DNA of 64,000 nt from Sapientia aquatica (GTDB lineage: Bacteria; Pseudomonadota; Gammaproteobacteria; Burkholderiales; Burkholderiaceae_D). Under the pieces are notes generated by a model that made no database searches, had not been told where the DNA came from, and was given only the letters and a program-made list of their open reading frames with translations. The translations under genes and the position numbers were made by a program. How positions within the stretch are numbered: the first letter of the stretch is position 1; each line of letters opens with the position of its first letter. This document shows positions 167 through 17,659 of the stretch, in pieces. Where the stretch lies: contig NZ_SMYL01000007.1 of assembly GCF_004358105.1 (NCBI RefSeq), positions 1 to 64,000 on the forward strand. The letters run 5' to 3'.

Positions 167-3046
167 GTGGAATCACTGCTCCAAGATATGGAGGGCAATA
201 TTTGGATTGGAACGCAGAGAAACGGCTTACTATTTTGGGATAGTGCCAGAGGTAAATTCCAATATTTACGGGATGACACCCGAAGTCTGAAGAACATGTC
301 TGACGACACGGTGCAATCCTTATTTCAAGATCGCACCGGAACATTATGGGTCGGTACTTGGGACAAAGGTGCGGGCTATATTGATCTTGCCGGCGGCGGC
401 TTTTCTAGCGTGATGTCTTCTCAAAATTTTGGTGCCTCGTTGACCAATGAGCGAATTCAGACAATTTCAGGAGATGCGGCAGGAAACATCTATGCTGGAA
501 CGATGGGTGGTCTGAGCGTTATCGACATACAAAACAATGTCACCAAATCTATTCTGGTGAGCGGTAAGTCGCCGACTTTGGACGACCGCGAATCGGTGTA
601 TTTTATCGTGCGCAAAGATCCGACTTCTCTTTGGGTTGCCAGCAATCAGGGGATCTTGGTATTTGACACCAAGCAGGGCAAGTACGTCACTAAAAATAAA
701 TTTGCCAGCTTCAGTAAATACACCAATGTCTTTTCATTGATGGTCGATCATCGGCAATTATTGTGGATTGGCACCCACAACGGGTTGTACCGCTTAGACC
801 CGAAGTCAGACACAACAGAAGCGTTTTTGCATGATTCTAGTAATCCTGCCAGCATTCCCGACGATGCCGTTGAACCACTTCTTGAAGATAGCCAACATCG
901 AATTTGGATCGGTGCCGACTCTGGTTTGGAGATGTTTAATCCGGCTACCAATAAGTTTGTCATCTTTAAAAATTCGCCCAACGACAAGGACAGCATAGGC
1001 TCGGGCGCAATTACATCGTTGTACGAAGATTCACAGAAAAGACTTTGGATTGGGAGTGAATCTGGACTGAGCGTTGCCTTTGTCAATCAAGACAATGACA
1101 TTAAATTCCGTTTTTTTCCGACAGAGTCCCTAGTGGATTGCGTCTTGGAGGGAAGCGATGGAAATCTGTGGCTGAGCACAGATAATGAAATACTTAAATT
1201 CGATCCAAATCAGTTCGAGTTTAAAAAATTCATGATCCAAAATAGCCAGCCCAAAGCAGAGTTCTACTTCAACTCCTGTTACAAGGACATCAACGGAACA
1301 ATGTATTTTGGTGGCGCCCAGGGAATGGTTTATTTCAAGCCCGGCAGCGTTTTTGGAAACTCCTATTCGCCTAATGTCGTCATCACAGATTTCCAAATAC
1401 TAAATCGCTCAATACGCAGGAAAGGCAATTATCAAGGCGTGGAGTTAGATCATGCCATCCAAGAGGTACGGCACATACAGATTCCGAACGACTTTAATTC
1501 ATTTTCAATTGAGTTCGCCGCGCTACATTTTGCCGACCCCGTAGCCAATAAATACATGTACCGCTTGGATGGCTTTGACCAAGGCTGGATTTCAACCAAT
1601 GCTGATCGCCGCTTCGTGACGTACACCAATCTTAATCCGGGTGTTTATACATTCAGAGTCAAAGCTGCAAATAAAAACGAAGTGTGGAGCGCAAACGAAA
1701 CGACCTTGGTAATCGAAATTTTTCCGCCGTTTTGGAAAATATGGTGGGTACAGTGGTTGATGGTTATTGCTGCTGCGCTGTCACTGTTTTCGTTTTACCG
1801 CTACCAAATCGGAAAAGTAATTTGTCAACGCGATGAGTTAGAGCGGATGGTGGCGAACAGGACTCAAGAAATTCGCCAGCAAAATTTTAATAAATCAAAG
1901 TTCATTGCCGATGCGGTGCACGATTTAAAGCAGCCGTTGCAGGCAATCACTAATTTTTTAGCCGCTACAAGAAGCGCCATTTCGAACAAAAATTATCCTA
2001 AGAGCCGAGAGCTAATTGATTTGGCGCAGGACGCCACTCAGGTAATGCGAACAACCTTTGGATCGATATTGGAGTTGTCCAGGTTAGAGTCCGGCTTGAT
2101 CGAAGCAGAGTGCTCGGTGTTTAATCTAAAAGACATCATTGAAGAGCTCGTTCTCTCGGCAAGCGCCACAGCGGAAGCAAAAGGTGTGCGATTAGTTGTT
2201 CGACAAAACCCAGCGAATTCCTATTTCGTTGATAGTGATCCAGTTTTATTGCGAAGAGTAATTGCCAATCTATTGTCCAACGCAATTAAGTACAGCGATG
2301 TGCAAAAAGCGCATTGTCCCAAAGTGATTATCGGTTTGGTAGCGCGTAAAGATGTTTGCAGAATATATGTGGTTGATAACGGTATCGGTATTCCTCATTC
2401 GGAACAGGAAAATATATTCAAACCTTTTTTTCAAATCCATCATGAGAAGCCCGGATTTGGCGATGAAATGGGAATGGGGTTGGGGTTATCAATTGTCAAC
2501 GCCATCATTAATTTATTACCGAATCATAAGCTGTTCTTTAAGTCAGTCGTTGGTGCCGGAACTAGGTTTTATGTTGATGTTCCGCGCGCCGATGAGCAAG
2601 ACGCGCCATTTGGTAATTTGGTTAATCAAAGTCATATCACAGAAATAAAAACCGAAGTCGCCGGACTTTTTGTTTTGTATGTCGAGAATGATATGTTGGT
2701 GAGAAATTCTACCGAGGCACTATTTCAAGCCTTCGGGATTTTGTGCCAAGCAGTAGGTTCCATCGAAGAATTGCACGCGGAATTGCCCAATATTCTTAGG
2801 AGACCAGATATTCTATTGGTCAATTATTACTTACCCAATGGATTTACGGCGTACAAAGCAATCGACATTATTCGTAGCGAGTTTGAGCATACGATACCGA
2901 CGATTGTCGTTACTGGCAATCCGAAGGAAGTTAGTCTGTCCGCTGCTCTTGGACAGACCATCTTGCTTCAAAAGCCTGTTTCAGCAGAAGTCTTAATAAA
3001 TGAAATTCATCGATTAACTAGCGTAGATGATTTGGGGGAATTATGA
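167..3046 (+). CDS. Propeller-type hybrid sensor histidine kinase with a degenerate receiver (5' end missing or broken)
   Basis: The readable part begins at a GTG at 167 that falls inside a blade, so the true N-terminus is missing. Residues from about 8 to 420 hold repeated regulator-propeller blades (IWIGT, LWVGT, IYAGT, LWIGT, IWIGA, LWIGS). A Y_Y_Y domain follows at about 443-515, one membrane helix at about 525-547, then a HisKA domain with the phospho-accepting His at residue 585 (AVHDLKQPL). The HATPase has its N box (NLLSNAIKYSD), G1 box (DNGIGI) and G2 box (GLGLSIV). The last 120 residues are receiver-like, but the phospho-acceptor position is Asn886 (LLVNYYLP) and the acidic pair is E-N, so this domain probably cannot be phosphorylated. 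The topology is periplasmic sensor plus cytoplasmic kinase. The gene overlaps the next regulator by ATGA, so the two probably form a pair. Confidence 0.85.
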   Translation: MESLLQDMEGNIWIGTQRNGLLFWDSARGKFQYLRDDTRSLKNMSDDTVQSLFQDRTGTLWVGTWDKGAGYIDLAGGGFSSVMSSQNFGASLTNERIQTISGDAAGNIYAGTMGGLSVIDIQNNVTKSILVSGKSPTLDDRESVYFIVRKDPTSLWVASNQGILVFDTKQGKYVTKNKFASFSKYTNVFSLMVDHRQLLWIGTHNGLYRLDPKSDTTEAFLHDSSNPASIPDDAVEPLLEDSQHRIWIGADSGLEMFNPATNKFVIFKNSPNDKDSIGSGAITSLYEDSQKRLWIGSESGLSVAFVNQDNDIKFRFFPTESLVDCVLEGSDGNLWLSTDNEILKFDPNQFEFKKFMIQNSQPKAEFYFNSCYKDINGTMYFGGAQGMVYFKPGSVFGNSYSPNVVITDFQILNRSIRRKGNYQGVELDHAIQEVRHIQIPNDFNSFSIEFAALHFADPVANKYMYRLDGFDQGWISTNADRRFVTYTNLNPGVYTFRVKAANKNEVWSANETTLVIEIFPPFWKIWWVQWLMVIAAALSLFSFYRYQIGKVICQRDELERMVANRTQEIRQQNFNKSKFIADAVHDLKQPLQAITNFLAATRSAISNKNYPKSRELIDLAQDATQVMRTTFGSILELSRLESGLIEAECSVFNLKDIIEELVLSASATAEAKGVRLVVRQNPANSYFVDSDPVLLRRVIANLLSNAIKYSDVQKAHCPKVIIGLVARKDVCRIYVVDNGIGIPHSEQENIFKPFFQIHHEKPGFGDEMGMGLGLSIVNAIINLLPNHKLFFKSVVGAGTRFYVDVPRADEQDAPFGNLVNQSHITEIKTEVAGLFVLYVENDMLVRNSTEALFQAFGILCQAVGSIEELHAELPNILRRPDILLVNYYLPNGFTAYKAIDIIRSEFEHTIPTIVVTGNPKEVSLSAALGQTILLQKPVSAEVLINEIHRLTSVDDLGEL

Positions 3047-6598: not shown

Positions 6599-7384
6599 CT
6601 ATTTTGTCGCCGGGTTGACAAATAAATGATTTAGCTCGCCTGATGCTCTTGCTTTTACTAGCGCAGAATTGAGACGATTTAAGTAAGCGTCGTTGTATCC
6701 AGGAGCGACTGCGAAGTGATTAGAGATCACCGCTGCCGGCTTGGGAACGATGCAGAACGGGTTTGTTTTCATCGAGCCGGTTTCTAGATTTGCCAAGCGC
6801 CCGTATTGACGAATTCGCGAGTCTAGCGCCGCATCAGCGGTTTTCATTTGGCTATAAATTAAATGTCCGTCTTCACGTTTTTTCAGCAATTCTTGCAGGC
6901 TTGATTCGAAGTCATGAAACTCATAGGCTAGTATCACGCGGTCATTTAATATCTTATCCAGCTCTTCGCCATACGAAGCGTCTCGCATTACTCCTATCGT
7001 TTTCCCTGTTAGATCTTCCAGTTTATCGAAGACGAATTTGGTATCGCATCGTTTGACTATCCATACATAGTCATAATAAATTGGTTCGCTAAATTTAAAA
7101 CTGAGGGCTCGTTTTTTTGTGATCGAAGCACCGTATAAAAAGCCGTGACCATTTTTTGCTAAAAAGAGTGCCTGCTTCCAGGGATAGCGCTTGAATTCGA
7201 AATGCACATTTGTTTCTTTTTCAAGATACTGAAAAAATTCTGTCGTCTCTTTATTGAACGGAATCACTTTATCCGTTGAATCAAGATTCCTGTTGGTGAG
7301 AATAGTGATCGTCTGAGTTTCTTGGCCCAGCGCTGGACTAGTCAGAATAACTAAGGCGAGTAGTGTGATGACAGAAGTGAACAT
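6599..7384 (-). CDS. Orphan periplasmic solute-binding protein (SBP_bac_3 type), copy 1
   Basis: This is a transporter-type substrate-binding protein of the bacterial family-3 fold, about 261 residues. I place the start at the ATG at 7384 rather than the longer frame to 7447. From 7384 it begins with a clean signal peptide (MFTSVITLLALVILTSPALG, cut before QETQ), which lines up residue for residue with the paralogue at 9563-10345. The mature part carries the family blocks EFFQYLEKETNV, FKRYPWKQALFLAKNG and TGKTIGVMRDASYGEELD. Four relatives lie within 4 kb, but no permease or ATPase gene is near. It may therefore serve a distant transporter, a sensor, or act alone. The ligand is unknown; the fold usually binds amino acids or other small polar molecules. 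Confidence 0.85.
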   Translation of the reverse strand: MFTSVITLLALVILTSPALGQETQTITILTNRNLDSTDKVIPFNKETTEFFQYLEKETNVHFEFKRYPWKQALFLAKNGHGFLYGASITKKRALSFKFSEPIYYDYVWIVKRCDTKFVFDKLEDLTGKTIGVMRDASYGEELDKILNDRVILAYEFHDFESSLQELLKKREDGHLIYSQMKTADAALDSRIRQYGRLANLETGSMKTNPFCIVPKPAAVISNHFAVAPGYNDAYLNRLNSALVKARASGELNHLFVNPATK

Positions 7385-7733
7385 AATAGTTGACTGCGAT
7401 TTAAGGCCGTCCCGTATTTTATAGTAATGCCGCGCTGTAATATCCATGGGTGATAAAAGTAGCTAATGTCGTATCAGTCAATTAAACCATTCCGTTGCTA
7501 GACATGATTTCTCTCCAAAACGTGGCGAAAGACTCGTATTAATTCGACCGATTTATGTTGTTCGCGCTGGTTAAATTTCAAATTCGATCCTCTTGGTGGT
7601 GAAGTCTACCTTGTTAGAATATAGTGCTTTATTCTCGACCAATTCATTTTTAGTCCGCTATTCAGAAGGCATTTATTTCGGCCTGATCGGATTCTTATTT
7701 ATTTGGTCATTGTTATAATTCAATAAATATAAA
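7385..7733. other. Divergent intergenic region between two solute-binding genes
   Basis: About 350 bp of AT-rich DNA separate the minus-strand copy 1 and the plus-strand broken copy. It must hold the promoters of both. No operator-like repeat was recognised. Confidence 0.35.
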
Positions 7734-8549
7734 ATGAAGCTTAAATCTCTTTATGCAGGTGTTTTGCTATTGGTATTTTTTACATTCAATGTAGTGTTTG
7801 CTCAACAGGATTTCAAATCTACTTTGCAACCTCGCCCAGATTCCGCTCGCGTTAACTTGTTTTTTTCCAGCAGTGTTAAAACAGATTCAACTATCGAACC
7901 TTTGTTGCCGGAGACCATTGGCGTTATTCGTTATCTAGAACAGGAACTTGGTTTTAAATTCGACTTAGTAAGAGAGCCTTGGAAGCGTGCACTGACCTGA
8001 ACGATGGCGGGCGAAGGGATCATTATTGGTATTTCTAAAACGAATGAGCGACTTCAATATTTTGATTTTTCTGAGGCACTTTCTGAGGACAATGTGTGGT
8101 TGGTTACGCGTTGCGACAAGATTTTCCCGTTTAAAACGCTAGACGATCTTAAAGGTAAAACAATAGGCGTTGTGCGGGGAGTAAGCGCGGGCGAGGAATT
8201 TGATGGGCAAGCTAACAGACTCTTTAAAATTGACGATGATACCGACGTTACCGAGGCGCGATTTATCAAACTCTACAATGGTCGGGCTGATGCATTAATT
8301 TATTTGAAAACCGCAAACTCGACATCATCAGAACTTGCGCGTGAATTAAATCAACGGTATTTGCCGGTGGAGGCAAAAATCAGCGCGGCGAGCCCTACTT
8401 TTTGCGTGCTGGACAATCCAGTGGTGTCGGTTTCCGTGCACATTGCTCAGAGAAAAGGTCTTGACCAAAGCCCGCTTCAACGTATCAACAAGGCGATTAT
8501 TTCGGGAAAACAAAATGGAAAATTAAAACGTGTGACGGCGAGTAAATGA
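7734..8549 (+). pseudogene. Solute-binding protein gene (copy 2) split by an in-frame TGA
   Basis: Two open stretches, 7734-8000 and 8004-8549, lie in the same frame and together match the neighbouring solute-binding paralogues over their whole length. The first encodes a signal peptide (MKLKSLYAGVLLLVFFTFNV) and reaches the block REPWKRAL. The second resumes with GEGIIIGISKTNERL and continues through GKTIGVVRGVSAGEEFD. At 7998-8000 a TGA stands where the paralogues carry an ordinary residue (PWKQALFLAKNG in copy 1). A single nonsense change therefore truncates the product after 88 residues, unless the TGA is a read error or is read through. The rest of the frame is intact, so the lesion looks recent. 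Confidence 0.75.
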
Positions 8550-8599
8550 GTCCAGTCCAATAACCCAGAAAGAGAAAATTGATCAACGCCGCTTTGCTA

Positions 8600-9424
8600 T
8601 TAGTTTAAGTTGGCTTTCGAATTAGTGAAAATTAATTTAATTCTACCGCTACGTTTTCCATGTTCAATCGCCTTGCTTATTTTAGTCATTTCGCCTTGGT
8701 ATTTACCTTTAGCACAGGCAAAATGAATCGTGTCAAAAAAAATAGGCGTGTAGGCTACAGTAAATTCTTGCGCAGCGATGTGCTGATCACTGAAGGTTGG
8801 GAACAGGTTTTTGATGAGGTAGGCTTTCAATTCGGCGCCGGAATCAAACTCAGAATCTAGGCGACGTCCGATCCAGAGCATTCCATTATTCCGCCCTGAA
8901 AATAATTTCTGAAATCGTCGTTCCATCGACAAGGTGTCATCATCTACTTTGAAGATCGTTGCTTTCGCTGCTTCAAATTCAAAACCATAGCTTGCTCCGC
9001 GCTCTACTCCGATTATTTGCCCTAACAAGTCTTTCGGGCTGTGGACCTTAACTTGTTTCTTACCCGCGCTGATTAGCCAAATTTTCTCTACCCAAAAAGG
9101 CTCAGAAAAATCGTAATCGATGATGCGTTCAGGAGATTTTGAAAAACCAAATAAGAATCCCTGACCATTTTTTGCGTATTCTTTTGCGCGGTTCCACGGC
9201 AGCACCACAATCTTTAGAGACAGGCCTGTTTCGGATTCCAAATAGCGCACAAATTCGTTGATATCTCGACTCACTTCAGCGGGCCGCCCATGAATATCTA
9301 ACACCTCTCCGACATACACTGGAATCGAGTTCTGAGCGAGGGTTGGAGTGAAAATACTCGAACCCCCAAAAATAAGGGATGCAAAAATTAACTGTCGTGA
9401 GTGCCAAGTGAGAAAGTCAAACAT
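8600..9424 (-). CDS. Orphan periplasmic solute-binding protein (SBP_bac_3 type), copy 3
   Basis: This 274-residue protein has a signal peptide ending near TLAQ (residue 31). The mature chain has the same block order as its neighbours: FVRYLESETGLSLKIVVLPW, EYAKNGQGFLFGFSKSPER, FSEPFWVEKIWL and GQIIGVERGASYGFEFE. It is the most diverged intact member and, with the broken copy 2, shares a motif missing from copies 1 and 4 (KVDDDT in this copy, KIDDDT in copy 2). It is convergent with the broken copy and in the same direction as copy 4, with 138 bp between, so it may have its own promoter. No transporter partner is adjacent. Confidence 0.85.
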   Translation of the reverse strand: MFDFLTWHSRQLIFASLIFGGSSIFTPTLAQNSIPVYVGEVLDIHGRPAEVSRDINEFVRYLESETGLSLKIVVLPWNRAKEYAKNGQGFLFGFSKSPERIIDYDFSEPFWVEKIWLISAGKKQVKVHSPKDLLGQIIGVERGASYGFEFEAAKATIFKVDDDTLSMERRFQKLFSGRNNGMLWIGRRLDSEFDSGAELKAYLIKNLFPTFSDQHIAAQEFTVAYTPIFFDTIHFACAKGKYQGEMTKISKAIEHGKRSGRIKLIFTNSKANLN

Positions 9425-9562
9425 AAGTAAGGTCGCGCATTAGCAGTAACAATTTGAGTGGCGATTCAAGTTAGCGTTGATTGTCACTCGATTTCGGTGA
9501 TGGTAACTTGTTCGTCAAAGTAATCGCTTGCCGCATGGGCTAATCGCCGATTGCCCAGTTCG

Positions 9563-10345
9563 CTATCGTGGCGATGACTTTAAGAATATGCGAGCGAGTT
9601 CGCCGGACGCTTTGGCCTTTATGAGCGCAGCATTAATTTTCTCTAGATAGGCGTCGTTGTAGCCTGGTGCGACCGCGAAATGATTGGATATAACTGTTGC
9701 GGGCTTAGGTACGACGCAGAAGGGCTTTGTTCTCATGGAGCCAGTTTCTAAACTGGCCAAGTCGGCATATTGATGGTTGAGCATATCCATTAATGCGTCA
9801 GCTTTTGATTCACTGTAAACCAAGTGCCCGTCTTCCCGCTTTTTAAGCAGATCCTTCAGGCTTATTGCGAAGTCGTTCATCTCATAAGCGAGTGTGACGC
9901 GATCATTTAATACGCTATCTAGCTCCTCGCCATACGAAGCTTCGCGCTTGACTCCGATTGTTTTTCCCGCTAGGTCTTCCGGCTTGTCGTAGTCAACCTT
10001 GGTGTCGCATCGTTTGACGATCCACACATAATCAAAATAAATTGGGTGACTGAATTTAAAGTAGAGCAATCGTTTTTTGGTGATCGATGCACCGTACAAA
10101 AAACCATGTCCATTTTTGGCTAAAAATAGCGCTTGCCTCCATGGATGGCGTTTGAATTCAAAACGGACGTTGGTTTCCTTTTCAAGATATTGAAAAAACT
10201 CAGTGGTCTCTTTATTAAATGGCATCATTCTGTCTGACCCATCAATATTTTTATTTGTCAGAACGGTAATCGTCTGGGTTTCTTGGCTCGCCGCAGGAGT
10301 TACCTGAATTAAAAGCGCAATGAATGCGATGAGTGGTATTAGCAT
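9563..10345 (-). CDS. Orphan periplasmic solute-binding protein (SBP_bac_3 type), copy 4
   Basis: This 260-residue protein starts with a compact signal peptide (MLIPLIAFIALLIQVTPAAS, cut before QETQ). It is very close to copy 1 throughout, for example NKETTEFFQYLEKETNV, AKNGHGFLYGASITKKR and ISNHFAVAPGYNDAYL. Copies 1 and 4 are therefore a recent duplication. Copies 2 and 3 are an older pair placed between them. Export to the periplasm is clear; the ligand is not. No permease or ATPase gene lies upstream or downstream. Confidence 0.85.
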   Translation of the reverse strand: MLIPLIAFIALLIQVTPAASQETQTITVLTNKNIDGSDRMMPFNKETTEFFQYLEKETNVRFEFKRHPWRQALFLAKNGHGFLYGASITKKRLLYFKFSHPIYFDYVWIVKRCDTKVDYDKPEDLAGKTIGVKREASYGEELDSVLNDRVTLAYEMNDFAISLKDLLKKREDGHLVYSESKADALMDMLNHQYADLASLETGSMRTKPFCVVPKPATVISNHFAVAPGYNDAYLEKINAALIKAKASGELARIFLKSSPR

Positions 10346-11850
10346 TTTGTTCTAGTGGAATTGGAGGATCACTTCTATTTTATAATGCCATGCGGCAATA
10401 TTATTATCGTTTGAAAATAATTTATTGTGAGTTGGCGATTAGAAAATGAGCGGGACAAAAGTCCGGATATTGGCAATTTGTTCTTTTTAAATCGAATTTA
10501 AAAAAAAGCTAGAGCGCCAACCAAAAGCAAGTCGTTTTGTGTTGAACACCTTGAATTTGCTATCGTGGCCGAAAAACTTAACGCTCTGTTCGCGCATGTT
10601 TAAACTTAAAAATGGCTGTGCTTTTAGCAATGAAACGCTTGTGGCGCATGCCGATTTTTGTCCGAAGATTAGTAAATATTTACTGTTAATTTGAGGCACG
10701 TTTGTCCCGACGCGCTCGCCTGTTGTTGTCTCAGCGCCACATGGTTAAACCGCATATTGTTAATACCCAATCCTATTTGTGTGAGGTGGCGGACAAAGTT
10801 AATTAACAGCTATTTCAGTTTCAATATCGGTGATGCACTTGCTGATAGCAATGATGGAAACTTTGTCCGTCGCTTAAGCCAAAAGAGTTGTGCGAAGAAC
10901 ACCTTATGAGTTTTATTAGTGGATCAAACTCGCTGCACTCGCATCAATTTTTTCTGGCTTTATTTCGTCAGCAATTAAAAAAACTTTCTTTGTGTTTGCG
11001 GTTTGATTTAACGAGCCGAACTAGCAAAACCGCTTCGCCGTTTTTAGATTTGTCAGCATCTACTGTCGCTAAAAACATGTACCCACGTTTTAAGGTTCAA
11101 TTCCCAGTTCGGGACATCCTCAAAGAAAATCATCTTGTGTGCGCTTCGATCCGAATTTAGATCGATGTAAATAAAGCGCGTCTCAATTTTTTACCACGTC
11201 CAATTTTCTGGAATTTCAAAAAAAGTAGGTCGCTGATTTGATAGCACTCACGATGCTGCTTTCACTAAATCAAGCGCTGCCAGCCAACACTTCAAACTAA
11301 AAAACGGCGCGATAAGTTTTGTATTTGTTTAGCCTGCTCACAAGTCCGCGTGAATAAAAGCTTGCTGTATGGAGCACTGGCCAAGCTAAATGCAATTCTC
11401 CATTTACTGCCGATTTTTATTAACTTTCCGAGTTAAAAATTTGGCGAAAAAAATAGGTGTGTTGTCGCGCGGTCCTTAACTATTTGCGACAAATGTCGAG
11501 CCGACTAAGCAGTTTTTCCTCGATGAAAACGGGACGCAGAACTCCACATAGATGCGGCCTTGGCGCGTGGTGATTGCAATGTGCTGCGCACGCTGCGCTA
11601 AAAATAACGCGACATATGTCACGTATGAAAGCTAAATAGGATTTGATTTAATGCTTGCGAGGCTGATGTTTAATTCGTTGAAATCTGGCTGATGCTATTT
11701 TTACAAACGATGAAAATTAAACAGCTTTTTCGTGCGAGCTATGGGTGATCTTTGAATCGGTTGTGTTCACCATCAACACATCGCGCCTGATTTTTATCAG
11801 CCTCATTGGTTCGCCCACTTTTATAAATTAAAAATCCTTAGGTAATCAAA
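10346..11850. other. Gene-poor interval, 1.5 kb
   Basis: No open frame here has a good start, a ribosome site and a recognisable protein. Frames of 70-90 codons at 10487-10699, 10691-10909 and 10888-11160 overlap one another and look random. Non-random signals are five copies of GGACAAA (either strand) between 10453 and 10868, and GCGACA-type palindromes at 11486-11498 and 11609-11622. The last 200 bp must carry the promoter of the OmpR-type regulator. Confidence 0.5.
10453..10868. repeat. Cluster of five GGACAAA motifs
   Basis: The heptamer occurs at 10453-10459 (+), 10657-10663 (-), 10701-10707 (-), 10791-10797 (+) and 10862-10868 (-). Most copies extend to C/GGGACAAAG/A. By chance a given heptamer would be expected far less than once in 416 bp on both strands. 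No coding reason for it is visible. Confidence 0.4.
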
Positions 11851-12567
11851 ATGAGAATTGCGCTCGTTGTTAATGACACCAATTTATTAAAATTGCTCAG
11901 CACTTTCTTGTATTCAGCAGGACATAAAGTGGAACAGTTTACGAATGGAGAAACTGCGCTACAAAGCCTGTTGGACGACAAGTATGAAATGCTAATACTC
12001 GATTGGCAGTTTCCTGAATTAGTTGGCGCTCAATTTATATTATCGGTGAGAGACAAACTACCTTCGAGCTTTCCCATTTTGTTTATGACCAATCGGTGCG
12101 GAGAAGACGATATCGTCGCTGGATTGGCGGCTGGTGCCAATGATTACATGATTAAGCCAATACGCCGCGGCGATCTAATCGCACGCGCGCAAACGCAGTT
12201 GCGCAGGGCCTACCCGAATCAACATACGGCTGATTATTTTGAATTCGGAAAATACGTCTTTGAAACAGGGTCGGCAACCTTAACAATCACCGGTGAATTC
12301 ATCGAGCTAACTCAAAAAGAATTTGACCTGGCCCTGCTGCTATTTCGCAATTTAGGGCGTGCGCTCTCGCGCGGTTATATATGGGAAACCGTATGGTTCC
12401 GTGACGTTGGTGGTTTATCCAGAACGATGGACGCGCATATTTCGCAAATCCGCAAAAAATTACACCTCCACATTGATAACGGTTTTCGCCTCACGCCAGT
12501 GTACAACTATGGCTATTGCTTAAATCACTTCGTGCGGAAACCAAACGAAAGCAGATTCGTAGCATAG
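11851..12567 (+). CDS. OmpR/PhoB-type response regulator heading a GTPase-Roadblock module
   Basis: This 238-residue protein has an N-terminal receiver and a C-terminal winged helix. The phospho-acceptor is Asp51 (LILDWQFPE) and the conserved Lys is in YMIKPIRRGD. The acidic pair is N-D (VVNDTN) instead of D-D, which may weaken metal binding. The winged helix (about 135-228) has the OmpR pattern ELTQKEFDLALLLFRN, SRTMDAHISQIRKKL and a final hairpin YNYGYCL. No histidine kinase lies beside it. It precedes, by 83 bp on the same strand, the winged-helix/GTPase/Roadblock genes and probably belongs with them. It could act as their input or regulate their transcription. Confidence 0.9.
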   Translation: MRIALVVNDTNLLKLLSTFLYSAGHKVEQFTNGETALQSLLDDKYEMLILDWQFPELVGAQFILSVRDKLPSSFPILFMTNRCGEDDIVAGLAAGANDYMIKPIRRGDLIARAQTQLRRAYPNQHTADYFEFGKYVFETGSATLTITGEFIELTQKEFDLALLLFRNLGRALSRGYIWETVWFRDVGGLSRTMDAHISQIRKKLHLHIDNGFRLTPVYNYGYCLNHFVRKPNESRFVA

Positions 12568-12650
12568 GGCTGACCACCAAACAAACCGCTAGCGAAATAA
12601 ATGACGATGCGCTGCGCTGACTCTGTTCTTATAAATTTAACCCCACCAGA

Positions 12651-13331
12651 ATGTGTTTTATGGCTGAAAAGCATACCTTTAATTTTCGTTTCGGCGATGT
12701 TCCGTCACGACAGTCAGCGCTCTTTGAATCGTACGTCAGAGTTTTAGAATTTCGCTTGCAACATAAGTGGCGCCAACTAGATGGTGCAGTCGATTTGTTT
12801 ATTTGCGGTGACGAAATAGACGTCGATACGATTCAACAGATGTCAGCTGAGTTCGCGCACACCGTCATGTTATCCGAGACTAAACAGGGCGAAAATTTTT
12901 TGAGCTTGCCGCTAAAGTCCGATGAAATTGAGACGGTGTTAAATCGCATCGGTCAACTGATCGTAAAAAGGAAAACTAACGCCGACCCAGATCGCGCTGG
13001 CATGCATTCAGTCTTTCGAATGGTGCGCTGGCCGCCTTCTGAAATTCTTCAACGAAGTCCGGAGCGAGTGCGTCTGGCGAGCTTAATGACTAAGCAGGCG
13101 AGCTCGATATTCGAGCTGCATAGTCGTTCTGGAATCCCAATAGATTTATGTCGCCGTTTTATCGAGGATATGCACGCTAAAGGCTTATTGAAAGAAGAGG
13201 CCAAGTTGGAATATCCGACCCACAGTTTGAATGTCCAAGAACAAGCGATTCATGCATCGTCGCAATTCAAATTATTTTCTTTGATTCGTCAAAACCTATC
13301 TCGCTTCGTTAATAGCGATGCCCATAAATAA
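12651..13331 (+). CDS. Uncharacterised protein with a winged-helix-like C-terminus, partner of the GTPase
   Basis: This 226-residue soluble protein has no signal peptide or membrane helix, and I do not recognise a named family. Residues from about 125 to 180 read like a small winged helix: PSEILQRSPERVRLASLM, then SSIFELHSRSGIPIDLCRRF, then IEDMHAKGLL. This resembles the DUF742 proteins (CvnC) that accompany Roadblock and GTPase proteins in actinobacterial conservons, but the likeness is by pattern only. The N-terminal 120 residues look like an alpha/beta domain and may be a degenerate receiver. Its stop TAA overlaps the ATG of the GTPase by one base, so the two are made together. A second ATG at 12660 could be the start. 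Confidence 0.7.
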   Translation: MCFMAEKHTFNFRFGDVPSRQSALFESYVRVLEFRLQHKWRQLDGAVDLFICGDEIDVDTIQQMSAEFAHTVMLSETKQGENFLSLPLKSDEIETVLNRIGQLIVKRKTNADPDRAGMHSVFRMVRWPPSEILQRSPERVRLASLMTKQASSIFELHSRSGIPIDLCRRFIEDMHAKGLLKEEAKLEYPTHSLNVQEQAIHASSQFKLFSLIRQNLSRFVNSDAHK

Positions 13332-13876
13332 TGAAACACAACATACTTTTTACAGGAACCACAGGGGCGGGGAAAACAACGGCGATTAGCGCAGTTAGCG
13401 AGATAACTGCATTGAGTACGGATGTCACCAACTACGATTGTACGGTGAAAAAAAATACGACTACCGTAGGATTGGATTACGGCGAAATGACGTTGGCCAA
13501 TGGCGACACGCTGCGCTTATATGGCACGCCCGGTCAGACTCGGTTTGATTTTATGTGGGAGATTTTGTCGCGTGGTGCTCTTGGACTAATTATTCTCATT
13601 GATAACCAGTCAAGTGATCCGCTAACGGATTTGGATACGTATCTGAACGGTTTTAAACGTCTAATCGCCGATACCGCCTGTGTTGTCGTGATATGCCGAA
13701 TGGATACGCACCCCAATCCAACCATTGATTGTTTTGCACAACGTTTAGAAAAACACGGAGTGATATGTCCTGTTTTAGCCGCTGACGTCAGGGACCCTAT
13801 CCAAGTTGCCGAGCTATTAGAGTTATTAATGATGCAGTTAGAAAGCAAGTTGGATAGAGCAAACTATGAAAAATAA
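13331..13876 (+). CDS. Small Ras-like GTPase of the MglA/CvnD kind
   Basis: This is a 181-residue P-loop GTPase. G1 is GTTGAGKTT (residues 9-17). A Thr-rich switch I (NTTTVGLDYGEM, 42-53) and G3 GTPGQTRFDFMW (65-76) follow. The G3 word is GTPGQ, not DxAGQ, as in prokaryotic Roadblock-linked GTPases such as CvnD. The guanine-specificity motif NKxD is replaced by CRMD (122-125): the Asp is kept but the Asn is lost, so base preference should be tested. The gene overlaps the Roadblock gene downstream by 11 bp and the winged-helix gene upstream by 1 bp. Roadblock proteins are known activators or effectors of such GTPases, so the neighbours are likely direct partners. Confidence 0.88.
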   Translation: MKHNILFTGTTGAGKTTAISAVSEITALSTDVTNYDCTVKKNTTTVGLDYGEMTLANGDTLRLYGTPGQTRFDFMWEILSRGALGLIILIDNQSSDPLTDLDTYLNGFKRLIADTACVVVICRMDTHPNPTIDCFAQRLEKHGVICPVLAADVRDPIQVAELLELLMMQLESKLDRANYEK

Positions 13877-14252
13877 TCCGCAATTAATTAGAGATGCTGC
13901 GTTGGCCGTTGATTTTATTATGAATCAAGCCAGCAGCGTCAAAGCAGTCCTGATCTCAACCGAAGATGGGTTTGAAGTGGCTTCGCGCACTGAAAACACA
14001 GCCCAAATAAAACGACTCTCGGCAATGGCAAGTTCGCTGGCTGCGCTTGGCGCGTTGGCTGGTGAAGAAAGTCGCTTAGGGGAGTGCAAGAATTTAATTG
14101 TCGAGGCCGAATTTGGCCTACTCATCATCCTTCAAGTGCGTATTGGCACCGATACATTAATTATGAGTGTCATCGCTGGCAAGGACGCCGCAATCGGACA
14201 AGTTCTTTACTACGCAAAAGATGCCGCTCGCACGTTGGCAAGAGCGCCGTAG
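13866..14252 (+). CDS. Roadblock/LC7-domain protein 1
   Basis: This 128-residue protein consists almost wholly of one Roadblock/LC7 domain. Its order is an N-terminal helix, a strand reading VKAVLISTEDGFEVAS, a long Ala/Leu-rich helix (RLSAMASSLAALGALAGEE), then strands NLIVEAEFGLLIILQV and TLIMSVIAG, and a final helix. In MglB and CvnB such domains form dimers that bind a small GTPase and change its nucleotide cycle. The start codon lies within the last codons of the GTPase gene, so the two are translationally coupled. It is cytosolic. Confidence 0.88.
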   Translation: MKNNPQLIRDAALAVDFIMNQASSVKAVLISTEDGFEVASRTENTAQIKRLSAMASSLAALGALAGEESRLGECKNLIVEAEFGLLIILQVRIGTDTLIMSVIAGKDAAIGQVLYYAKDAARTLARAP

Positions 14253-14468
14253 TCAAATGGCTCAGGCACATTTGCTACTGGTCGCCATGCCAAATTTTAA
14301 AAAAATCTGAGCCAGGCCAGAGCAGGCTGCGCGTACCAATAACACCGAATTATTTTGGACGTGGTAATGGCGTGGGAACTAATACGGGAAAACAATTTTT
14401 AGCGCAAATGTCGTTTATACCGCCACGACACTTGTTTATCTTTGACGGCGGAAATTTTGGAGGTTTAA

Positions 14469-14831
14469 GTGGCAAATATTATTCAGTCAGCGCAAGCTAT
14501 CTTGGCGCAAATCGACGGTTCCATTTGTTGTGCAATCGTGGACTCGACCAGCGGGATGATTTTGGCCCAAGCGGGTTCCGGAATTGATCTGGAACTTGCA
14601 GCAGCCGGCAATACTGAAGTTGTTCGTTCCAAGCTTAAAACAATGCGTAGCTTGGGATTGAACGATGCTATCGAAGACATCTTGATTACTTTGGGCAAGC
14701 AATATCACATTATTCGCCCAATGGTTAAGCAAGAAGGGTTATTCATTTATGTGGTTTTAGATAAGCCCAAATCCAACCTGGCGTTGGCCCGTCGAAAAAT
14801 TTCGGATATTGAGTCAGAAATCACCGTGTAA
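14469..14831 (+). CDS. Roadblock/LC7-like protein 2
   Basis: This 120-residue protein begins at GTG 14469, with a good ribosome site (GGAGG, 14459-14463). It follows the Roadblock layout more loosely: a helix (QSAQAILAQI), a strand (CCAIVDSTSGMILAQA), a helix, then strands DILITLGKQYHIIRPM and LFIYVVLD, and a C-terminal helix. It is the last gene of the module, 216 bp after Roadblock 1, which is long enough for a separate promoter. It may be a second partner or an inhibitor of the GTPase; the sequence does not say which. Confidence 0.75.
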   Translation: MANIIQSAQAILAQIDGSICCAIVDSTSGMILAQAGSGIDLELAAAGNTEVVRSKLKTMRSLGLNDAIEDILITLGKQYHIIRPMVKQEGLFIYVVLDKPKSNLALARRKISDIESEITV

Positions 14832-14877
14832 TTTTCTGAAGTCAAATTTGAATCTAGATCAAAATGACCAAGTGAAT

Positions 14878-14898
14878 AAAACACGGCAGTGTTTTTTT
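14878..14898 (+). terminator. Probable intrinsic terminator of the GTPase-Roadblock module
   Basis: AAAACAC-GGCA-GTGTTTT forms a 7-bp hairpin with a 4-base loop and runs into more T residues. It lies 47 bp after the second Roadblock gene. The stem is AT-rich, so it may be weak. Confidence 0.45.
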
Positions 14899-15131
14899 AA
14901 ACAGGTAGTCACGCGGTTTGAAGTGCAGAAAAATCAAAGCAAGTTTGGTGATTTAGTTTTCAAACTTTTTACTGCCTTAAAACCTTCCCATCCTCGAAAT
15001 TCCAATTCCAGCATAAGCTCACCACGGCGTTGTCGTTTTTGGGAATTGGTGACTGTTTAGTTCGCTATTTAAGTTTGATCTAATTAAGCATTTGTTTGAT
15101 TTTGTATCTTACGTCTGTCGATAGTAAAACA

Positions 15132-15159
15132 GGGAGGGCGGATTGCAGTCCGCCTTCCC
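15132..15159 (-). terminator. Intrinsic terminator after the TonB-dependent receptor
   Basis: An 11-bp GC-rich stem with one wobble pair (arms 15132-15142 and 15149-15159) encloses a 6-base loop. On the minus strand a TGTTTTAC tract follows. It sits 23 bp past the receptor's stop codon. Confidence 0.8.
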
Positions 15160-15181
15160 ACTTACGACTGTCGTTACATTC

Positions 15182-17659
15182 TTAGAACCGATATGCTACG
15201 GATGCTTCGATTGCTCTGCCAAAGATCGGCCTAGCCATCACTACGCCTGAGGTAGTTCCTAAAATACGGTTATCACCCTCGGTCAAACCAAAGGTATTGG
15301 TTAAATTCGTACCGCTGACTCGGAACTCCAATTTGTCGCCGACTTCCGCCACAATCCCACCGTCCAAGGTATGGTATGCCGGCAGAACCTGTTGGTTTTG
15401 AATATCCGAATACCGCTGACCAATATAGCTGTAAGTGCTATAGAGCTTGATCGAACCCCAATCCATAGGCACGCGATAACTTGGCGTTAAGCGTGCTTGG
15501 AATTTTGGCTGACGTTGTAATTGATTGCCGTTATCGCTGTGACCGATGGACGAGTCGATGCCTTGGAAGCCACTGTATTTACCGTCTTCATAGTCACCAG
15601 AGAACGCTAATTGTAGGTTAGTCAATGGTCGCCAAGCGCCTTCAAATAATGCGCCGTTAGTGACCGACCCGTAGTTATACCAAATGGTTTGTCCCGAACT
15701 CAAAATCTGGCTATCTTGAATACCGGTAAATACTTTATGAAATACGGAGCCATACAACGAAAGCACTGGACCAACCGATTTGATACCGACTTCGTAAGTA
15801 TGGATACCTTGCACGGGCGCGGTCACGCTTGACCCGGCGTCTCCCCGAATGTCGTCAAACTGCGGCATTAAATGGCCAGAGTTGATGCGTGCATAGATAT
15901 TTAAATCTTTATCCAACTTATAGCCTGCACCAACGGTAAACGACGTTGCGTTATCGTTTTGTTGTACCGATTGATAGGTGCCATTTAATACGCTGGTATT
16001 TTGGTTATACAAATGCAGCGGATTGGTATCGATATTTTGGGACGAGATATTTTCTAAGGTGGCGTTAATAGTTTGGCGTTCGCTACGCAATCCAGCATCG
16101 AGCGTTAATGCCGGATTAATTTTCCATTGATCAGCGACGAAAAATGCGGTTTTTTGTCCGGTATAGGAATCATTGACCGAGTAAAAGGTTGGCCCATCAT
16201 TTCCTTTATTGGAAATAATTGCGCCATTGTTTAAGGCCACATTAATGGTTTTGGGATTCGTGGTTGCTGTCATCAATGTGCTATTACCCAAGTACCAAAT
16301 ATCGTGCGAAGAATAATTGGCTAAGAAAGTACCAAAGGTAAAGGTGTGATCTTTGATGAGCTCCTTACTGAATTTCAACTCATCCGTAGTCGATCGAATT
16401 TGCTTGTCCACATACCATGCACCCGCGTCGAGTACCTGCTGATTTCCGGCGACGGTACCCGAACCATCGCTGTAAGTGGCCGATCCCGTTGTCGCCAGAC
16501 CACCAGCAGCTACCGCAGCCGTATTTTTGTTAGCGTTAGTGATGGCATTAGCGATGTAACTATTCATTGTCTGAGGCACGCCACCGGTAAAAAATGCATT
16601 CGTTTGGACATCGCCGCTAACGAAGTTGAGTTTATTGCTGACATCCCAGCCGCTGATTTTTTGGGTGAAATCGACGCCGAAGGTGTGCAAGTTAATGCCT
16701 CGCCCGTTTGACATGTCAATGTTTTGGCTTTGCCCTGGTCCGGTTTGTAGGGTAAAAAAGCGAGTTTCATTGCCGTACAGCGATCCGGTCAGTGGGTTGA
16801 AACCTGGGAAAGCACCAGTAGGAACACCGGCGCTATTTGCAGTCACTGGGATGGCCGTGAAAAATAAGTTCTTGTCATTAACCGTGCGTCCGTAAATCGT
16901 GATTTTTCCCTCATCCAGTTTATGGGTGAGTGTGCCAGTTAACTGGTAACCATCGTCGGTTGGGAATTGGCTATTACGCACACCTTCGTCAGTACGATAA
17001 AAGCCGCCAATCGTGGCATACCATCCCTCAGAAATCTTTCCACCTAAAAAGCCGTCATAGCGGCGCTCATTGCCGGTGCCGACAGTGGCACGGAATAATC
17101 CCTCGTCGCCATTTTCACCGGTTTTTAATACGAAGTTCATCGTTGCACCTGGCTGCCCGTTCGATAACACAGTGTTCGGTCCGCTGACCAAGGCTTCCAT
17201 GTGATCGATTGTGTCATCCAAACGGAATAACGACGAATTGTCCATGAACGACAGGGTAGGTGCTGGGTAAATTGGTGCGCCATTTAATTGAATGGTGACG
17301 TAAGGTGCATCGCCGCCACCGGGAAATCCCGCGACTTCAATGTTAGGGCCGGTTTGTCCGCCAGACGTTTCGGCATAAACACCGGGAACGATCTTAAATA
17401 AATCGGCTGTTGACAGCGGATTGGCCTCTTTGATTTGTTCTTCACTGGCCGTTGTAATCGAATAGGGCGCATCGATTTTGCGTATTCCACGACCTTGTGC
17501 GCTACCGGTAACGACAATTTGTTGCACTTCGGCTTGTGAGTCAGCGGACTTGCTGAGTGCTGCTGGGTTTGCCGATTGATCCTGTGCGTGCGCCTGATTG
17601 GACAAAGCCAAAATCGCGATGGTGATATTCGATAATACAAACTTGTAATGGCGTTGCAT
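15182..17659 (-). CDS. TonB-dependent outer-membrane receptor, probably for a maltose-type sugar
   Basis: This 825-residue receptor has a signal peptide cleaved after AHA (residues 23-25) and a TonB-box-like IVVTGS near residue 48. A plug domain at about 60-180 contains DLFKIVPGV and ends GATMNFVLKTG. A 22-strand-type barrel follows and ends in the outer-membrane signature VAYRF. Such receptors import ligands with energy from TonB/ExbBD, which are not in this window. It is the last gene of a carbohydrate locus (MFS permease, beta-phosphoglucomutase, GH65 phosphorylase, LacI). A LacI-type palindrome lies 157 bp upstream of its start, so the ligand is probably a disaccharide or maltodextrin, not a siderophore. 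Confidence 0.9.
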   Translation of the reverse strand: MQRHYKFVLSNITIAILALSNQAHAQDQSANPAALSKSADSQAEVQQIVVTGSAQGRGIRKIDAPYSITTASEEQIKEANPLSTADLFKIVPGVYAETSGGQTGPNIEVAGFPGGGDAPYVTIQLNGAPIYPAPTLSFMDNSSLFRLDDTIDHMEALVSGPNTVLSNGQPGATMNFVLKTGENGDEGLFRATVGTGNERRYDGFLGGKISEGWYATIGGFYRTDEGVRNSQFPTDDGYQLTGTLTHKLDEGKITIYGRTVNDKNLFFTAIPVTANSAGVPTGAFPGFNPLTGSLYGNETRFFTLQTGPGQSQNIDMSNGRGINLHTFGVDFTQKISGWDVSNKLNFVSGDVQTNAFFTGGVPQTMNSYIANAITNANKNTAAVAAGGLATTGSATYSDGSGTVAGNQQVLDAGAWYVDKQIRSTTDELKFSKELIKDHTFTFGTFLANYSSHDIWYLGNSTLMTATTNPKTINVALNNGAIISNKGNDGPTFYSVNDSYTGQKTAFFVADQWKINPALTLDAGLRSERQTINATLENISSQNIDTNPLHLYNQNTSVLNGTYQSVQQNDNATSFTVGAGYKLDKDLNIYARINSGHLMPQFDDIRGDAGSSVTAPVQGIHTYEVGIKSVGPVLSLYGSVFHKVFTGIQDSQILSSGQTIWYNYGSVTNGALFEGAWRPLTNLQLAFSGDYEDGKYSGFQGIDSSIGHSDNGNQLQRQPKFQARLTPSYRVPMDWGSIKLYSTYSYIGQRYSDIQNQQVLPAYHTLDGGIVAEVGDKLEFRVSGTNLTNTFGLTEGDNRILGTTSGVVMARPIFGRAIEASVAYRF

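Follow-up and report, generated by a model that had tools for sequence, protein, structure and literature searches.

Arrangement of the locus

The first 64,000 nucleotides (nt) of contig NZ_SMYL01000007.1 from Sapientia aquatica, a stretch termed the window below, carry a putative Group 3 MglA GTPase module with two Roadblock proteins. All coordinates refer to the window unless a related locus is named. Five genes are found at positions 11851–14831, all on the + strand. The first encodes an OmpR/PhoB-type response regulator of 238 amino acids (aa) (11851–12567). It is followed by P226, a protein of 226 aa with a predicted receiver-like domain, winged helix and C-terminal helix (12651–13331), by a single-domain MglA-family small GTPase of 181 aa that is of Group 3 type by Pfam, motifs and tree (13331–13876), and by RB1, an MglB-like Roadblock protein of 128 aa (13866–14252). 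RB2, a second Roadblock protein of 120 aa identified by its predicted fold, has a GTG start (14469–14831). A GGAGG at 14459–14463 is read as its ribosome-binding site. The P226 and GTPase genes overlap by 1 bp and the GTPase and RB1 genes by 11 bp; the regulator and P226 are separated by 83 bp, and RB1 and RB2 by 216 bp. The single direction of the five genes and both overlaps had been noted in a sequence-only reading of this DNA, and all five open reading frames (ORFs) are present as described. The second ATG of P226, at 12660, may be an alternative start. The conserved core consists of four genes, P226, GTPase, RB1 and RB2 (12651–14831).

The order P226-GTPase-RB1-RB2 is found in 11 of the 14 other loci of the GTDB family. 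This survey of gene neighbourhoods had been proposed in the sequence-only reading, and it bears out the view that the GTPase and the two Roadblock proteins form one conserved unit. Of the 195 family genomes, counting that of the window, 12 contain the GTPase, 10 contain RB2 and 5 contain P226, the last by a single-sequence search. All 12 RB2 matches in the family adjoin GTPase places, and 3 of the 15 GTPase matches are without an RB2 match (G029, G043 and G061:C26). Searches of the other four genomes in the genus returned neither P226 nor the GTPase nor RB2, and at the DNA level only the regulator was recovered there.

A wider set of 93 related loci consists of the best 80 of 580 relatives among genome contigs and 13 further stretches, with one duplicate dropped. 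In 73 of these the GTPase is preceded by a P226-family match, and 75 have a Roadblock match within 4.6 kb. These counts are descriptive and do not represent an independent test, because the profiles were iterated on the same loci.

The GTPase and its class

The GTPase has a Pfam match to ATP_bind_1 above cut-off (5.9e-12) and one to Roc just below cut-off. Sequence and alignment place a GTPGQ motif at residues 65–69 (13523–13537, + strand), within a G3 motif that reads YGTPGQTR. The G2 motif is TTTVGLDYG, with Thr replacing the Arg finger, and the G4 motif, CRMD, has no Lys. In G5, which reads DVR, the conserved Arg is present and the Ala of DAR is replaced by Val.

A quick tree was made from 90 of 105 GTPase rows, with 15 near-duplicates omitted. 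It separates 14 CvnD sequences from 76 others with a support of 100, and the window GTPase is among the latter, together with Neisseriaceae, Moraxellaceae and other rows. The window sequence pairs with G186 (support 99) and belongs to a clade of 14 rows (support 97) that comprises the window, L101–L103, L021, L022 and L107–L114. The L107–L114 GTPases have a very long branch (3.75) and LLARPIS-like residues at G4; their place in the tree is unsure because of this branch length and the absence of the usual G4 motif. The sequence-only reading had assigned to the GTPase the GTPGQ switch of CvnD: the motif is indeed present, but the protein falls outside the CvnD clade.

MglA GTPases have been divided into five groups (PMC4316618, Wuichet and Sogaard-Andersen 2014). 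In the accessible part of that paper, Group 3 is described as almost restricted to beta- and gammaproteobacteria and as consisting of a receiver-like/winged-helix protein, MglA and one or two MglB proteins. The window module shows the GTPGQ motif, the Thr in G2, a G4 without Lys, the Arg in G5, two Roadblock partners (RB1 and RB2) and a betaproteobacterial host. The receiver-like/winged-helix gene beside the GTPase is identified by prediction and profile only. Judged from these traits, the module very probably represents a Group 3 MglA system, set apart from CvnD by a tree that was built without the original Group 3 reference sequences. It shares with other Group 3 systems the receiver-like/winged-helix protein, GTPGQ together with unusual G4 and G5 motifs, one or two MglB proteins and a conserved neighbourhood. 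It differs from them in the compact P226 without the receiver Lys, in the added OmpR-type regulator and in an RB2 subfamily found in four phyla. The class has been named since 2014, and the module described here would be a compact variant of it. The open-access literature searched yielded no biochemical mechanism for Group 3.

The sequence-only reading had called the locus conservon-like. There is a kinship in kind, in that both have MglA-family GTPases. Like the actinobacterial conservons/AGPS (CvnA-D; Mfp), the module combines a GTPase carrying GTPGQ with a Roadblock protein and a winged-helix protein that is remotely DUF742-like. In contrast to conservons, it has no kinase, its order is C-D-B-B' and not A-B-C-D, its GTPase is outside the CvnD clade, and no protein has a Pfam DUF742 match above cut-off. 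The lack of a CvnA-type kinase and of DUF742 above cut-off, together with the tree position of the GTPase, rules out membership of the conservons (Group 2).

A GTPase with a Roadblock partner is also characteristic of the Group 1 MglA-MglB systems of Myxococcus and Thermus, and the RB2 model matches MglB structures. The window GTPase differs from these in that Thr stands where they have the intrinsic Arg finger, and in reading GTPGQ where they have TVPGQ. By its description, the mgl locus of Snodgrassella is similar in having a Group 3 mglA and several mglB genes in a betaproteobacterium (PMC11112851); a counterpart of P226 is not mentioned in the accessible portion of that account.

Structure and relationships of P226

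The AlphaFold2 model of P226, from an alignment of 42 rows, has a mean pLDDT of 84.3 and a pTM of 0.52. It begins with strands and helices ordered as in a receiver, continues with a winged helix and closes with a terminal helix. Fold prediction had been suggested in the sequence-only reading, where a winged helix was read at the end of the protein, and the model places one there. P226 has no Pfam match above cut-off, DUF742 included. The four best solved structures in a Foldseek search are AmiR (E 5.8e-5), StyR (9.2e-5), a second AmiR entry and a protein related to pilus assembly; the TM-scores for this two-domain protein are low, at 0.28–0.34 by query. The N-terminal profile matches the receiver profile of the regulator with a probability of 72%.

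The receiver-like domain is assigned to residues 9–110 (12675–12980) from the model, profile and alignment. The position of the receiver Lys is occupied by L86 in P226, and Lys is present in 35 of the 42 aligned rows. C52 ends the third strand of the domain in the model, where the alignment is uncertain and D54 and D57 are near; the acceptor Asp is probably replaced, by C52. The protein is compact in that 37 of the 42 rows of the alignment are 360–478 aa in length. The winged-helix domain comprises residues 121–183 (13011–13199) and is remotely CvnC/DUF742-like according to the model and profile comparison. The C-terminal helix, a proposed docking tail, is modeled at residues 204–225 (13260–13325) and has the motif LFSLIRQNL. 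A tail of the LFxRIxxKL type forms the end of 37 of 47 P226-family proteins (strict pattern), and the tails of DUF742 proteins are LLERVLxGL-like.

For comparison with CvnC, 20 actinobacterial DUF742 loci were assembled, of which 14 have a CvnD; 18 stretches were used, with L159 (partial, 82 positions) and L163 (stop) omitted. The P226 C-terminal profile matches DUF742 with a probability of 65%, or 86% with DUF742 as query, over 69–71 columns. Among 100 controls with shuffled columns, the highest probability was 1.5%. With the P226 profile as query, the control profiles gave 14% (MarR), 40% (IclR) and 0.5% (DNA-binding domain of the regulator). The fetched loci provided a pool of 8046 ORFs, 88 of which encode P226-family proteins. 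Against this pool, the CvnC (DUF742) profile placed 10 P226-family proteins among its 25 best matches; the MarR and regulator profiles, run on the same ORFs, each had one such match in their top 25. The DUF742 resemblance noted in the sequence-only reading is in agreement with both comparisons. The P226 gene directly precedes the GTPase gene, as CvnC precedes CvnD in the order given in the available text of PMC13343842. Taken from sequence profiles, these properties suggest a remote counterpart of CvnC/MfpC outside the Actinobacteria. A literature search on CvnC, conservons, DUF742 and winged helices found no paper that links P226-type proteins to CvnC.

Several points weigh against this relationship. 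With DUF742 as query the controls are higher (MarR 29%, IclR 65%), and the control profiles are small, with 6 sequences for MarR and 2 for IclR. Given the 65% for IclR, some of the signal may come from winged helices in general. Under the CvnC profile the window P226 has rank 4 with an E of 0.096, which is weak alone; rank 1 is another protein, from L068, which is also placed first by the MarR profile, and the top 50 include only 13 proteins that belong to the P226 family or are encoded directly before a GTPase. Hypergeometric values overstate the enrichment because the P226-family members are not independent. In addition, mfpC is said to occur only in Actinobacteria in the part of PMC13015309 that was accessible.

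A winged helix may also indicate a transcription switch, with P226 binding DNA under control of the GTPase. The available text of PMC4316618 takes the winged helix of Group 3 as a sign of gene regulation, a point that disfavors a role of P226 on the GTPase itself, and the same has been offered as a hypothesis for CvnC (PMC8510531, seen in part). The winged helix of the model and the Foldseek matches to the regulators AmiR and StyR are consistent with DNA binding. The recognition-like helix, however, is hydrophobic with few Lys or Arg residues: the mean of Lys plus Arg per 14 residues is 0.76 in the P226 family (42 rows) vs. 4.0 in the regulator paralogues (7), with 0.93 in DUF742 proteins (15 of 18) and 1.83 in MarR (6), the last two from segments placed by rough patterns. 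Furthermore, the best profile partner tried is CvnC, a homologue of the reported exchange factor MfpC. A transcription switch is considered rather unlikely.

Two plasmids carry other proteins ahead of such genes. On the Agarilytica plasmid pSU2 (L182, 6354–8030), which has an MglA-type GTPase together with a Roadblock gene, a BLUF protein (E 8.1e-23) is encoded before the GTPase, in the place of P226. In a Streptomyces plasmid, a protein with sub-cut-off DUF4388 and helix-turn-helix matches precedes a Roadblock gene and RB2. Both cases fit an exchangeable input domain.

The Roadblock proteins

RB1 has a Robl_LC7 match under the Pfam cut-off and contains a D-G pair in TEDGFEVA. It is also the one Robl_LC7 match in the whole genome. 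RB2 has no Pfam match above cut-off, and Robl_LC7 is absent from its listing. Its structural model has a pLDDT of 85.9, and the best matches in the structure search are Roadblock, MglB, MglC and Ragulator chains. By this prediction RB2 is of Roadblock fold, so that both proteins read as Roadblock from the sequence are retained, RB1 by its sub-cut-off match and RB2 by its model.

RB2 is 66–73% identical to its counterparts in 12 of the 13 sublineage loci. The thirteenth, L022, is cut by a contig end and has a different Roadblock protein, with 27% identity. Comparison of the window with L107–L114 shows identities of 66–70% for RB2, 30–35% for the GTPase, 26–30% for RB1 and 16–25% for P226. Matches to RB2 are found in 27 records of the plasmid collection, some of them chromosome-sized, including Comamonas, Acinetobacter, Streptomyces, Deinococcus and Hymenobacter; the Hymenobacter matches have 40–45% identity. 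The subfamily, with a AAAGNTEVVRAK core, has matches in records of Pseudomonadota, Actinomycetota, Deinococcota and Bacteroidota, and where its members are annotated in the plasmid listing they are termed "hypothetical protein".

Among 398 Pseudomonadota genomes, RB2 is present in 33, at 45 places. The 39 stretches fetched cover 42 of these places, and two (L233 and L234) contain weak matches of 26–35%. A GTPase is found in 21 of the 39 stretches, on the opposite strand in L226 and 5.5 kb away in L227. The remaining 18 are apparent orphans or lie near contig ends.

The OmpR-type regulator

The match of the first gene to an OmpR-type regulator, as first read, is clear, with Response_reg and Trans_reg_C both above the Pfam cut-off. 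Its proposed place in the module is a different matter. The sequence-only reading had the regulator replacing the conservon kinase, in a phosphorelay in which the phosphorylated regulator passes its state to the GTPase. The gene is on the same strand, immediately before P226, and its receiver has kept the acceptor Asp, the Thr and the Lys, properties that would suit such a role. However, when regulators were counted by a profile score of >80 bits, on the same strand and within 3.2 kb upstream of the GTPase, only one of the 93 related loci had one. This locus is from a gammaproteobacterial metagenome-assembled genome (L042), where by reading the regulator is part of a kinase/regulator pair. In a few other loci a regulator lies farther away or downstream.

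The regulator has six relatives with 55–66% identity across five genomes of the genus. Four of them, one in this genome, are located between genes read as minCDE and hemA; the fifth is before hemA with minCDE not nearby. An orphan regulator of this type thereby precedes hemA in five genomes of the genus (L125–L129). The sixth relative is carried by a small contig of the same genome as the window. The minCDE and hemA labels were read from the proteins, with no family search. The window regulator has V7 and N8, and the six paralogues have D or E at position 7 and D, H or N at position 8. We take these to be the acid-pair positions of the receiver; both would then be replaced in the window protein. 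No kinase domain is present in the five proteins, and among 9 other window ORFs scanned there is a single kinase, at 167–3046. P226 itself has Leu in place of the receiver Lys, as described above. A phosphorelay into the GTPase is very improbable on this evidence. Because of the single occurrence among the 93 loci and the paralogues elsewhere in all five genus genomes, the regulator is not regarded as a core component. Judging from these comparisons, it is probably a duplicated, lineage-specific neighbour that is not in the conserved module.

Neighbouring genes and other features

The four core proteins have no matches above cut-off in an NCBIfam scan, and no Rfam match in 11000–15200 reaches the gathering score. 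Promoter-like sites (3 vs. 6.1 expected) and terminator-like sites (4 vs. 3.9 expected) do not exceed those of shuffled sequences. The base composition of the locus shows no sign of recent transfer. An anti-phage system was considered and is unsupported, with a single weak PADLOC match for the four core proteins, IetA to the GTPase (E 0.0078).

Elsewhere in the window, the kinase at 167–3046 is a sensor kinase with Reg_prop and Y_Y_Y repeats and HisKA and HATPase domains. A cluster of related solute-binding-type genes is found at 6599–10345, one of them confirmed as SBP_bac_3; within it, 7734–8000 and 8004–8549 resemble a single solute-binding-type gene split by a stop.

Some related loci have additional genes. 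In L106 (4577–5968, − strand) and L042 (6529–7881, + strand), the GTPase and Roadblock genes are separated by a gene for an ABC-ATPase with a fused dual-specificity phosphatase domain. In the gammaproteobacterial loci L032 (7613–8863) and L063 (3069–4338), two genes come after the 120-aa Roadblock gene; from reading only, their products, of 158 aa and 248 aa, resemble a PAS protein and a phosphonate-binding-type protein.

Proposed function of the module

A model of the module can be proposed from these comparisons. P226 would sense a signal via its N-terminal domain, and not by ordinary phosphorylation. Its CvnC-like winged helix and C-terminal helix would bind the GTPase and promote GDP release, and RB1 would be the GTPase-activating protein that stimulates GTP hydrolysis. 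RB2, by far the best conserved of the four, would probably be a subunit of a Roadblock dimer or the link between the switch and a conserved partner. The signal would leave the module as GTP-bound GTPase, with type IV pili or surface behaviour as possible targets, and the regulator at 11851 may control expression of the putative operon. As a whole, a Group 3 switch with P226 as sensor-controlled exchange factor and RB1 as activating protein is given about an even chance.

The role of P226 in this model is proposed because the CvnC homologue MfpC has been reported as an exchange factor, with MfpD as a GTPase-activating protein (accessible parts of PMC13343842 and PMC13015309). An interaction of CvnD9 with CvnB9 and CvnC9 is also reported (PMC8510531, available text). 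The response regulator complex RomR/RomX, termed an MglA exchange factor in PMC9481161, is a precedent for a receiver protein with this activity. There are also observations that do not favor it. No P226-family match lies upstream in 20 of the 93 related loci, and both activities on MglA, the GTPase-activating and the exchange-promoting one, have been ascribed to MglB (PMC11016934), so that a separate exchange factor may be unneeded. By analogy, P226 could be the exchange factor of the GTPase, with a likelihood that approaches, and at best equals, an even chance.

As to the output, the module could control the polarity of type IV pili in the manner of MglA, with P226 acting chiefly as a localisation factor; this reading may coexist with the exchange-factor model. 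Three PilT-family proteins are above cut-off in the genome, and the fourth Foldseek match of P226 is to the structure titled pilus assembly-related. In Snodgrassella, mutation of an orphan mglB in the Group 3 set is reported to alter the colony edge on soft agar and to affect gut competition (PMC11112851, accessible text). On the other side, the Group 1 traits (Arg finger and TVPGQ) are absent, and no pilus gene was seen among the neighbours read, not all of which were scanned, which also tells against pili as an output of the exchange-factor model. This alternative is judged unlikely as the main function of P226. Motility or surface behaviour, suggested as a possible output in the sequence-only reading, is plausible from the single Snodgrassella case, and surface behaviour would be the likeliest output of the switch by analogy.

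Two wider proposals are put forward together, tentatively and at somewhat less than even chances. The first is that exchange on Group 3 GTPases is promoted by P226-type proteins. These would be sensors in one piece, with an interchangeable input domain driving a CvnC-like winged helix that contacts protein and not DNA. The candidate input domains are the pseudo-receiver described here, BLUF in Agarilytica and perhaps a DUF4388-type domain in Streptomyces. The second is that RB2 defines an unmodelled Roadblock subfamily, partly plasmid-borne and present across phyla, whose sequence is far better conserved than those of its partners. If these proposals are correct, conservons and Group 3 systems would share one design of sensor, exchange factor, GTPase and Roadblock protein, and an activator of the Group 3 class would be identified. 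The RB2 subfamily would provide a new handle on the targets of these switches.

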